64,000 bases of DNA from Candidatus Acidiferrum typicum (GTDB lineage: Bacteria; Acidobacteriota; Terriglobia; Acidiferrales; UBA7541), in assembly GCA_025463055.1 (NCBI GenBank), contig JAOAPV010000064.1, positions 1 to 64,000 on the forward strand. Reading direction: 5' to 3'. The position numbers and the translations under genes were made by a program. Under the pieces are notes generated by a model that made no database searches, was not told the origin of the DNA, and was given only the letters and a program-made list of their open reading frames with translations. Below, in pieces: positions 30,947 through 35,321 of the stretch (position 1 is the first letter of the stretch; every line of letters starts with the position of its first letter).

Positions 30947-31040
30947 GCGCCACGTTTCACCGGCTTCTTCGCTAGTTATTTGCATCCTAATTCTTGGGCA
31001 CGATACTTCCAGCAGCTATATAATCCTTGCGAGCACTGAA

Positions 31041-31523
31041 ATGTCCCATAAGCACACGCTCGATCCGATCGTCGCGGCCGCACTTTCGTTCTGGATGGCC
31101 GCCGCCGCATGCGTCATTGGCTGCATGCAGCCCGTGCTCGCCCCCGCGCTCGCCAACGCCACACCACAAAGGGAAGTCGCACCACAAAACGAAGTATCGA
31201 TTGGCCGGGGTCATTCACGGAATCAGACGCACGCGGGTCCAATGCCGGATATGGACTGCTGCAATCACGAAAAAAGTCCTTCCGATCCCGCAAGCGACAA
31301 GAAACCTCATCACGAAGCAGTCTCCTGCTGCCCACTCGACGCCAGGGTAACTCCGGCTCAAAAATTTGCACCACCATCAGCAATAGCGTTCAAAATCGAC
31401 GTCGTCTCCTCCACGGAATTCAATCTCCCATTCGCTCTGTTTCGACGCTCTCTACTGATCGACGATGCGCTCTGGCATAGCGGAAGAGATACCCTCCTCA
31501 AGACCCACGTCCTGCGCATTTAG
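31041..31523 (+). CDS. Secreted Cys/His-rich hypothetical protein (possible metal-related)
   Basis: N-terminal hydrophobic segment, MPDMDCCNHEK...HHEAVSCCP motifs. Confidence 0.6.
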   Translation: MSHKHTLDPIVAAALSFWMAAAACVIGCMQPVLAPALANATPQREVAPQNEVSIGRGHSRNQTHAGPMPDMDCCNHEKSPSDPASDKKPHHEAVSCCPLDARVTPAQKFAPPSAIAFKIDVVSSTEFNLPFALFRRSLLIDDALWHSGRDTLLKTHVLRI

Positions 31524-31621
31524 AACCATCCAACGCAGTTCGCTCTTTCCTTACGGATGCCCTCACGGACAAACAGGCTATCCGTGTGACAACAACCCTT
31601 CATTCCAAAAAGGAGAAAGTC

Positions 31622-31753
31622 ATGAAGAGCATCAGAGCAATTCTGTTGATAGCCGTAGTCGCATTCGGCCTCACAGGAGTGGTAAACGCAGCCAACGCTT
31701 CGTGCTGCGCTTCCGCCGATTGTTGCGCGTCCTGTTCCGGATGTGGAAAGTAA
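31622..31753 (+). CDS. 43-aa secreted Cys-rich peptide (not in ORF track)
   Basis: ATG...TAA translates MKSIRAILLIAVVAFGLTGVVNAANASCCASADCCASCSGCGK; purine-rich aaaggagaaagtc directly upstream as SD. Confidence 0.75.
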   Translation: MKSIRAILLIAVVAFGLTGVVNAANASCCASADCCASCSGCGK

Positions 31754-31954
31754 GCACCTAGCATGAAAATGAGGCGCGAGCGCAATCCCAGCTCGCGCCT
31801 CTTCCTTTTCGTCTCGCACGTTGCCCTTTTGCATTCGTTCGCAGGGCAACGATCTTATTTCCTGATTCCCACATCGTCTTCGCTCGAATCGCCGCCAACA
31901 GTTGCCGCCGCCTCATAAAAGGTAGCCGCCGCAGCTTGTGATACACTCACCTCG

Positions 31955-32272
31955 ATGCGACCCAAATTCGTGCGCGCCATCGCAACGATTCTCTTGGTGA
32001 CCTGTCTTGTTTGCCCACTAGTTGAGATGTTCGACCACTGGGATCACACCTTTCAAACCGGGAACGACACCGAGTACGCTTTGGTCGTTCTCGCGCTATG
32101 CCTGGGATTGGCGTATTCGTTCGCACGCTTCATCGTCAAATGTCTTGTGGCTCGCTGCACTGCAACATTTGCCTCCACGCCTTCCCTGCGGATCTCTTTT
32201 CTATTACCGCAATTCACTTTCAGCTCGCTTGTTAATGCGATAGGTCCCCCTCCTCTCGAACTCCGTATTTAG
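31955..32272 (+). CDS. Small hypothetical membrane protein
   Basis: Two hydrophobic helices; FDHWDHTFQTGNDTEYALVVLALCLGLAYSF. Confidence 0.6.
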   Translation: MRPKFVRAIATILLVTCLVCPLVEMFDHWDHTFQTGNDTEYALVVLALCLGLAYSFARFIVKCLVARCTATFASTPSLRISFLLPQFTFSSLVNAIGPPPLELRI

Positions 32273-32399
32273 AAGCCCTCAATAGCTCGTCCACAAAGCT
32301 TGCTTTCATCACGAATTTCCTCGCTCCACTGTGCGCGGCGGACCGTCCGCGAAATTCGACCTGAAGATTCTTTTCAGCATCGCTGGAGTGGTGACCCGA

Positions 32400-35321
32400 A
32401 TGATTCTCAATCGCCCCTTGCGCTCTTCACGCCATTTTGCAATCGACCTTGCATTGTCACTTCTCTGCCTGGTGGGTGTAGCCAGCGCAGGCGCTCAAAC
32501 CTCGCGAATTGGAACGACCCTTCAGGGCACTGTGACCGACAGCAGTGGCGCTGTCATTCCCAACTCAAAGGTTATCCTGCGCAATGTTCTGACTAATCAA
32601 ACTCGGAATGTAGAAGCTAACCAGCAGGGCTTTTTTCGAGCGGAGCAGCTTACCGTGGGCACCTATGAAGTGCGCGTCGAACAGCCTGGTTTCGCACTGT
32701 ATCAGCACGCGCCGATTCAACTCAGTCTTGGGCAGACCGTCCATCTCGACATCGTACTTGCGCCAGCGTCTGAATCCGCCAGCGTCACAGTAAGCGCGCA
32801 GCCCTCGGTAATGGATACATCCCAGACGTCAGTCGTATCGTCGATCGACCAGGAGAGAATCGAGGAGTTGCCTGTGCGCAATCGCAACTACCTTGATTTC
32901 GTGCTCCTTGCGCCAGGCGTATCCAGCGCTCCCACCGCATCTTCTGCGTCTGGTGCCGCATCCTTGAGCGGCAGCGGTTTCACCTTCGGCGGTCTGCGCA
33001 CGCGCAGCAACAACATTTCCATCGATGGCGTGGATAACAACGATGAATACTCGGGATCAAGCCGTACCGAACTGTCGCCGGAAATCGTGCAGGAATTCCA
33101 AGTTGTGAACAATGGACTTTCGGCGGAGTCCGGCGGCGCTTCGGGCGGCTCGATCAACGTCATCACTCGTTCCGGCACAAACATCATGCACGGCGATGCT
33201 TTTCTATTCGCGCAGGATGGTGCATTGAATGCGCGCGAGCCTTTCGAGGCCGACCCAGGGAAGCCATCCTTTCGACGCTTTCGCGGCGGTGCGTCTCTGG
33301 GCGGTCCCCTAGTGAGAGACCGTACGTTTTACTATACGGCGGCGGAGCAGGAGCACAATCGCGGACAGGCTAGCTCAGATATCGACCCCTCGGTCGTATC
33401 CAGCATAAACACGTTTCTCGCATCCGGGGCTTTTCCCGGTTTGACCACGCGCCATCTCGCGGCAGATTTCTTTCCGATTGCGCGCGCAGAGACCGAAGCT
33501 GCCGGCAAGCTCGATCACCAACTCACGAAAAATACGACGCTGATGGTTCGCTACGTATTCACGAACAGTAAGGAATCTGGCGATGCCTTCAACAACAGTG
33601 GCTTGATGGATGCCAGCGCACGCGGCAGTAGCTTCACCAGCGACAATGCTCTATCGGCGGCACTTACATCCGTCCTTGGGTCACAAGCAGTTAGCGATTT
33701 CCGGTTTCAAGCCGCCACCCGCCATGCGGTGCTCCGCACGAACGAGGCCTTCGGCCCCGGAATCGATATAGCAGGAGTGGCTGAGTTCGGGCGGCCCTAC
33801 AGTGGGAACAGCGCCCGCCGCGAAAACCATTATCAGGCGAACTACGCGTACTCGCGGACCCTGGGGAAACATCTCTGGAAAATCGGCGGCACGGTGAATC
33901 GCGTTCGGCTGCGTGCCGATGTTCCTGACGGCTTCGGTGGAGATTATCTCTTCAACTCCCTAGCGGATTTTCTTGCCGGAGCACCCGATCAGTTTCGGCA
34001 GGCTTTCGGCAACCCGAATGTGGATTTCCCGGTGACGAGTTTCGGCGGTTTCGTCCAGGATCACTGGTCGTTCACACGGCAACTCACGATCGACCTCGGC
34101 GTGCGATACGACTTCGAGCGTCTGCCCGCAGGGTTCAATCAAGACACCAACAACCTCAGCCCGCGAATTGGCTTAGCCTGGAGCCCTTCCGCCAAGTGGG
34201 TGTTCCGCGCAGGGTACGGTATATTCTTCGACCGCTACGTTCTCGCCAACCTCGCGCGCGCCATCCAGAAAAATGGTTCACAGGCGTTTGAGCAAGTAGC
34301 GGATGGTAACGCCTCAGCAAATCTCTTTGCGGCCAACGCAGGCGGCCCGCTGTCCGCGCCAGCGCCCGCGATCGCAACATCCATTTTTCGCCCGGACCCA
34401 CGCATGGCCACTCCCTATAGTCAGCAGGCCAACGCAGGCGCTGAATACCTGCTCGCGAAAAATCTCACGCTGCGCGCTGACTACTTGTTTGTTCACGGGC
34501 TCAAATTGCCTAGAACCATCAACATAAATCTGTTGCCGCCCGTTGCCCTCACGCCTGCAAACGCACCTAATCTAGCCATTCCAAATCCGACGCCCCAACA
34601 GATCGGCAGGGAAGTGTTTACGCCGGCTCGAGCAACGCCGCAGTTCGACGACATCTATCAGCTACAGAATTCCGCTGCATCCACCTACAACGGCGGTTCA
34701 CTAACGCTCAGCCGCCGAATGAACGCAGAACTGGAATTCTCCGCGAGTTACACACTCTCAAAAACATTCGACACCGCTTCCGACTACGACGAGCAACCGC
34801 AGAATCCTTTTAATCTGCGGGCAGAGAATGCAATCTCACGCCAGCACCAACAGCAACGTTTCGTATTCAACGCTCTATGGGACCTGCCCATCGGCGACGA
34901 AGACGAGAAAGGCGGGAAGGCAGAAGAAAACAGCGGATGGCTAACCCAAACGTTCAGTCATATTGAAGTGGCCCCGATTCTGACCCTCGAGAGTGGCCGG
35001 CCCGTGAGCCCGCTGACGGGTCTTGACTCGAATCGAAGCCACGCTTTTCCTCTTTCAGCAAGGCCGCTTGACCTCGGAAGGAACTCCCTCAAGACTCCCG
35101 CAATATTCACGATGGATTTGCGCGTTCTTAAGTACTTCCCGTTCGGCGGGGCGAAACGCCTCGACGTAGTAGCGGAATTCTTCAACCTGTTCAACCGCAC
35201 GAACGTCTCGGAGATCAATCCGGTCTTCGGCTCAGGTGTGTCGCCAATAGCCGGGTTTAGGCAGCCGCTTGCAGGAACCGGCGCTCGCCAAATTCAGTTC
35301 TCTTTGGACTTCGAGTTTTGA
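32400..35321 (+). CDS. TonB-dependent receptor with N-terminal carboxypeptidase-regulatory-like domain (Oar-like)
   Basis: LQGTVTDSSGAVIPNSKVILRN; plug region ELPVRNRNYLDFVLLAPGV; C-terminal QFSLDFEF barrel end. Confidence 0.92.
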   Translation: MILNRPLRSSRHFAIDLALSLLCLVGVASAGAQTSRIGTTLQGTVTDSSGAVIPNSKVILRNVLTNQTRNVEANQQGFFRAEQLTVGTYEVRVEQPGFALYQHAPIQLSLGQTVHLDIVLAPASESASVTVSAQPSVMDTSQTSVVSSIDQERIEELPVRNRNYLDFVLLAPGVSSAPTASSASGAASLSGSGFTFGGLRTRSNNISIDGVDNNDEYSGSSRTELSPEIVQEFQVVNNGLSAESGGASGGSINVITRSGTNIMHGDAFLFAQDGALNAREPFEADPGKPSFRRFRGGASLGGPLVRDRTFYYTAAEQEHNRGQASSDIDPSVVSSINTFLASGAFPGLTTRHLAADFFPIARAETEAAGKLDHQLTKNTTLMVRYVFTNSKESGDAFNNSGLMDASARGSSFTSDNALSAALTSVLGSQAVSDFRFQAATRHAVLRTNEAFGPGIDIAGVAEFGRPYSGNSARRENHYQANYAYSRTLGKHLWKIGGTVNRVRLRADVPDGFGGDYLFNSLADFLAGAPDQFRQAFGNPNVDFPVTSFGGFVQDHWSFTRQLTIDLGVRYDFERLPAGFNQDTNNLSPRIGLAWSPSAKWVFRAGYGIFFDRYVLANLARAIQKNGSQAFEQVADGNASANLFAANAGGPLSAPAPAIATSIFRPDPRMATPYSQQANAGAEYLLAKNLTLRADYLFVHGLKLPRTININLLPPVALTPANAPNLAIPNPTPQQIGREVFTPARATPQFDDIYQLQNSAASTYNGGSLTLSRRMNAELEFSASYTLSKTFDTASDYDEQPQNPFNLRAENAISRQHQQQRFVFNALWDLPIGDEDEKGGKAEENSGWLTQTFSHIEVAPILTLESGRPVSPLTGLDSNRSHAFPLSARPLDLGRNSLKTPAIFTMDLRVLKYFPFGGAKRLDVVAEFFNLFNRTNVSEINPVFGSGVSPIAGFRQPLAGTGARQIQFSLDFEF

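Follow-up and report, generated by a model that had tools for sequence, protein, structure and literature searches.

Does the 43-codon open reading frame near the middle of a 64,000-nt stretch of Candidatus Acidiferrum typicum DNA (contig JAOAPV010000064.1; hereafter, the window) encode a genuine secreted peptide, and what might such a peptide do? We addressed this by comparing the locus with related genomes, and found the peptide gene to be the second half of a compact two-gene unit with the following features (window positions, strand).

30995..31024, +, promoter-like sequence TGGGCA-N18-TATAAT (10/12 in a consensus scan), with its end 16 nt 5′ of the leader ATG
31041..31523, +, partner gene for a 160-aa exported, leader-like Cys/His protein (adjoins the peptide gene in 5/5 intact loci)
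31254..31268, +, DCCNH, first metal-site-like cluster of the partner (C(C/H)xH conserved)
31323..31334, +, SCCP, second cluster of the partner (invariant in 5/5)
31476..31523, +, conserved partner C-terminus HSGRDTLLKTHVLRI-stop, a candidate ribosome-sensing tail (H, GRD, LL, T and LRI invariant in 5/5)
31553..31585, +, intergenic hairpin (folding energy against shuffles; compensatory changes)
31610..31615, +, Shine–Dalgarno sequence (SD) AAGGAG (kept in all loci)
31622..31753, +, gene for the 43-aa secreted Cys-rich peptide (homologues, dN/dS and simulations)
31622..31699, +, signal peptide MKSIRAILLIAVVAFGLTGVVNAANA of the peptide (by inspection; kept in homologues)
31700..31750, +, mature peptide SCCASADCCASCSGCGK with six conserved Cys (homologue alignment)
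31771..31809, +, terminator-like hairpin (11-bp stem, 9-nt loop) with a T-rich tail

A selected, exported cysteine-rich peptide

The peptide gene runs from an ATG at 31622 to a TAA at 31751–31753, with 6 nt between the end of the SD and the start codon; the reading frame, its translation and the upstream SD are exactly as the original prediction gave them. Its first 26 residues were read by eye as a signal peptide with an AxA-type signal peptidase I site (cleavage between ANA and S), leaving a mature part that is 35% Cys in the layout CC-x4-CC-xx-C-xx-C. The six-Cys tail proposed earlier therefore holds, with its length corrected from 16 to 17 residues by this reading. Within the window no other reading frame pairs a hydrophobic start with six or more Cys in a 16-residue span, none arose when the window was simulated 60 times with a first-order Markov model, and the genome (5.33 Mb, 146 contigs) carries the gene once.

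A search of 89 genomes from the same GTDB family gave clear homologues of the peptide in four other species, all of the same genus (G025, G021, G032 and G005; E values 2.5e-14 to 5.1e-10), with pairwise identities of 54–78%. All four intact homologues keep the six Cys and a signal-peptide-like start, in the frame CC-x-S-x-x-CC-A-x-C-[ST]-G-(S)-C (general form, CC-x4-CC-A-x-C-[ST]-G-(x)C). Pairwise dN/dS, where calculable, was 0.12–0.39, and the six Cys and their frame are preserved at dS of at least 0.7. The reading frame is a real gene and the peptide is under purifying selection: the claim of a genuine, Sec-exported Cys-rich peptide, which had been staked in part on finding homologues with conserved Cys spacing, is supported by these four species.

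Named copies of the homologous loci are found in Acidobacteria MAGs (JABCZD010000002, JABCZR010000002, JAUTXJ010000066 and PMOV01000184). With the window there are five intact members, all from draft genomes of one genus of soil Acidobacteria. Profile searches of approximately 400 genomes of the class recovered no convincing relatives beyond the genus; the class-wide weak matches to leader and peptide that were inspected proved to be signal-peptide-only or wrong-frame noise. The peptide matched no Pfam family at E ≤1 and had no relevant NCBIfam or PDB match, and Rfam, PDB and plasmid searches returned no match. The two-gene family is real, small, taxonomically narrow and without a match in the libraries searched.

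A two-gene unit with conserved RNA elements

Although it had the gene right, the original prediction overlooked what defines the unit: a conserved partner gene upstream, a hairpin between the two genes and a terminator. Partner and peptide genes are co-directional and 84–98 nt apart in the five intact loci, and the unit spans less than 800 bp. Across these loci the surroundings share no conserved neighbour except STAS-domain-like genes near the pair in three (L032, L033 and L034) and no conserved metal gene beside the pair; because the flanking genes differ, the pair itself is the unit. By inspection, the pair in L034 (G005) adjoins a tRNA-like sequence and arsC-like and aquaporin-like genes, with hypABF-like genes nearby. 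The TonB receptor gene that follows in the window was rejected as a member because its linkage to the pair is not conserved across loci, and it has a leader-like reading frame of its own. Upstream of the leader, no 8–10-mer that could serve as a shared operator is common to three or more loci, and promoter-like sites scoring at least 9/12 number two in the region against 0.8 expected, which is weak evidence for a promoter.

The partner protein (132–165 aa in the family) had no family match above cut-off, and its homologues are 34–41% identical to the window copy. A hydrophobic N-terminal segment with two Cys (ACxxGC) is conserved, and C(C/H)xH precedes SCCP by 19–24 residues; both the export signal and the Cys/His clusters were called by inspection. 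SCCP is followed after 51–57 residues by the GRD of the C-terminal motif H-x-GRD-x-LL-x-T-x-x-LRI, which abuts the stop codon and, in a protein that otherwise changes fast, is conserved more strongly than any other part. Searched as a DNA pattern in 399 genomes, this motif gave one true match per family locus, chance-level matches elsewhere and no further convincing case. An AF2 model of the leader was mostly of low confidence, too low for a fold search.

Between the two genes lies a hairpin of 6–9 pairs, mid-gap and followed in most loci by TGACAAnAAC. Its local fold beats dinucleotide shuffles (Fisher p 6e-4, six loci). In a hand alignment of the arms that omits a bulged T in the window copy, 43 of 46 cells are paired with compensatory types at three positions, and swapping arms between species lowers pairing from 93% to 78%; the hairpin covaries. 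Another, strong hairpin lies 3′ of the peptide stop in all five intact loci, mostly before a T-rich stretch (Fisher p 1.3e-7), so that the unit very likely ends there; the 9-nt loop of the window copy exceeds what the terminator pattern scan accepts. In single folds of three gaps (window, G025 and G032), a pyrimidine stretch further upstream pairs with the SD, an arrangement reported for cutF–cutO (PMC9973294). When 30 nt of the peptide gene were added and the upstream part was shuffled, none of the five intact loci showed more of this pairing than expected by chance (combined p 0.90); it exceeded shuffles only in G014, which has a local hairpin. Masking of the SD is therefore not claimed.

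That genome, from a fifth other species, carries a degraded copy of the pair (L035, 2840–3105) with a gap of 101 nt. Only the last residues of its upstream gene are recognizable (THLLRI-stop), the hairpin and SD persist, and the peptide has lost Cys and its ATG, leaving a TTG start. Leader and peptide appear to have decayed jointly.

LRI-stop endings were also seen in other leader-like reading frames. The leader-like frame ahead of the OAR-type TonB receptor gene (32331–35321) is the next frame after the pair in the window, lies at 31955–32272 (+) and encodes a 105-aa exported or membrane protein (FDHWDHTFQTGND ... PPPLELRI-stop). Its homologues in the genus and class share an FDxWDH motif, terminate in LRI-stop and likewise precede a receptor gene of this kind; together they may form an acidobacterial family of CutF-like leaders. 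The class relatives end mostly in PPxLxLRI and precede TonB receptor or OEP efflux genes; in L120, L121 and L135 (G048, G050 and G105), frames ending in PPALPLRI or PPPLTLRI-stop lie directly 5′ of OEP (TolC-type) efflux genes. In L125 (G123), a 109-aa Cys-rich exported frame ending in PPPHPPRLTLRI-stop precedes a gene at 57–1421 (−) for a Met/His-rich 455-aa protein (MPDMPGMDMG...; no Pfam match), and the two look like a copper leader and its target. Given the PPxLxLRI-stop frames before TonB and OEP genes, the LRI-stop ending recurs in unrelated leader-like frames, although the pattern itself is only mildly enriched (22 occurrences against 12 in a reversed control).

Probable metal handling and its alternatives

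The pair most probably serves periplasmic metal handling. For how it would do so, we favour, at somewhat under an even chance and largely by analogy, a metal-sensing exported leader that drives a periplasmic metallothionein-like peptide from the two-gene unit, for the handling of thiophilic metal. Both products would enter the periplasm through Sec, as their sequences imply. The partner would act as the sensor while a nascent exported chain: metal bound at C(C/H)xH and SCCP would alter how the ribosome completes the tail GRD-x-LL-x-T-x-x-LRI-stop, and the altered translation of the tail would, via the hairpin approximately 30 nt downstream, change how the peptide mRNA is translated or what becomes of it. 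The mature peptide would then bind metal, most likely Cu(I), through its six Cys in a small thiolate cluster and act as a periplasmic scavenger or buffer in the manner of a metallothionein. Metallothionein-like binding is the most economical reading of the peptide. On chemical grounds, a 17-residue chain with six Cys, among them two CC pairs and a CxxC, would suit a small thiolate cluster of Cu(I), Zn or Cd. We favour copper, since leaders of this exported, Cys-containing type are mostly found ahead of copper genes (PMC9973294, PMC9426467); with no metal gene conserved beside the pair, the identity of the metal is a guess. In favour of the sensing leader are the constant adjacency of the two genes, the CutF- and CruR-like build of the partner, the covarying hairpin and terminator, the apparent joint decay in G014 and the LRI-stop parallel in unrelated frames. 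Against it count the chance-level SD pairing, the leader's lack of Pro-Pro and RAPP, the mild enrichment of the LRI-stop pattern and the small size of the family.

A bolder proposal, which we consider unlikely, is that GRD-x-LL-x-T-x-x-LRI-stop is a proline-free, arrest-type leader motif that governs an unrecognized class of exported mini-metallothioneins, the pair being a self-contained periplasmic metal-trapping cassette that occurs in varied genomic contexts. None of the five leader tails contains a Pro-Pro or RAPP motif, so that arrest remains putative. If the proposal were true, nascent exported leaders could sense metals without proline-based arrest motifs and for targets other than transporters and oxidases, and in some bacteria the periplasm would be protected by very small thiol peptides, whose genes as a class are too short for annotation size cut-offs.

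Other readings were weighed against the sensing leader. Both products may be working periplasmic metal-binding proteins that are simply co-transcribed—a signal-anchored Cys/His-rich chaperone and a small Cys-rich acceptor—with no regulatory leader and a hairpin that merely balances or stabilizes the mRNA. This is somewhat unlikely as a whole; the operon structure, the Cys clusters in both proteins and the absence of SD masking fit it, yet it leaves unexplained why a fast-changing partner should be most conserved in the tail that abuts its stop codon. The peptide could instead be an exported disulfide-bonded factor (a signal, an antimicrobial or an envelope component) that binds no metal, given its export to an oxidizing compartment, its even number of Cys, enough for three disulfides, and its patchy distribution. 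We regard this as decidedly unlikely, because CC pairs and a CxxC suit thiolate clusters and are ill-suited to a compact three-disulfide fold, and because the conserved partner carries metal-site-like Cys/His clusters.

The small, Cys-rich nature of the peptide had also suggested a metallophore precursor or a ribosomally made and modified peptide, and here the original prediction fared less well. Neither a modification enzyme nor a dedicated exporter was recognized within approximately 6 kb in the window flanks or seen, by inspection, in the four other loci, a plain, typical signal peptide runs right up to the core, and there was no NCBIfam precursor match above cut-off, making either kind of precursor very improbable. 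A chance reading frame, which shortness and the lack of an annotated family might suggest, is already refuted by the homologues; with conserved Cys and SD, dN/dS below 0.4 and none in 60 simulations, its probability is negligible.

Comparison with known systems

The closest parallels to the proposed sensing leader are CutF and CruR, to which the leader-like partner appears analogous. In cutF–cutO of Rhodobacter capsulatus, a stem-loop shields the SD of the next gene, and the mechanism involves a metal-dependent ribosome delay at the CutF C-terminus (PMC9973294). Here too, a small exported Cys protein with a conserved C-terminus lies just 5′ of a co-directional gene for an exported, putatively metal-handling product, with a stem-loop in the gap. 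The partner differs in lacking a proline-rich tail, SD masking by the hairpin is not above chance, and the downstream product is a 43-aa peptide rather than an oxidase, receptor or pump. Published filters for CutF-like leaders ask for PP within the last 15 residues, fewer than 150 aa, an N-terminal signal peptide and a same-strand gene within 1000 nt (PMC9973294). Every member has such a gene well within that distance, with lengths on both sides of the limit (160 aa in the window) and a signal peptide called by inspection only; PP is found near the end in 0/5 members, and the partner was rejected as a CutF-like leader by these filters. CruR of Bordetella pertussis (DUF2946, PF11162) combines an N-terminal export segment, CXXC and a C-terminal RAPP (PMC9426467). 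It shares with the partner the export segment, a Cys site and a near-constant spacing to the C-terminal motif (45 residues in CruR, 51–57 in the partner), whereas the partner has CC/SCCP and GRD-x-LL in place of CXXC and RAPP; membership in DUF2946 was rejected (best 16.0 bits against a cut-off of 23.7; hhalign probability 0.2%).

The peptide resembles SmtA and MymT, which have been discussed as cytosolic metallothioneins (PMC7558416), in being small and Cys-dense with a conserved Cys frame. It differs from them in its signal peptide and 17-residue mature part, and searches of Pfam, NCBIfam and PDB detected no sequence relation to described metallothioneins. With the copper storage protein Csp1, a Tat-exported, folded four-helix bundle that binds Cu(I) through Cys (PMC7558416), the peptide would share exported Cys-based Cu(I) binding, differing in being short and of the Sec type. 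We file the pair under none of these systems; it may work like a combination of CruR, CutF and a metallothionein.
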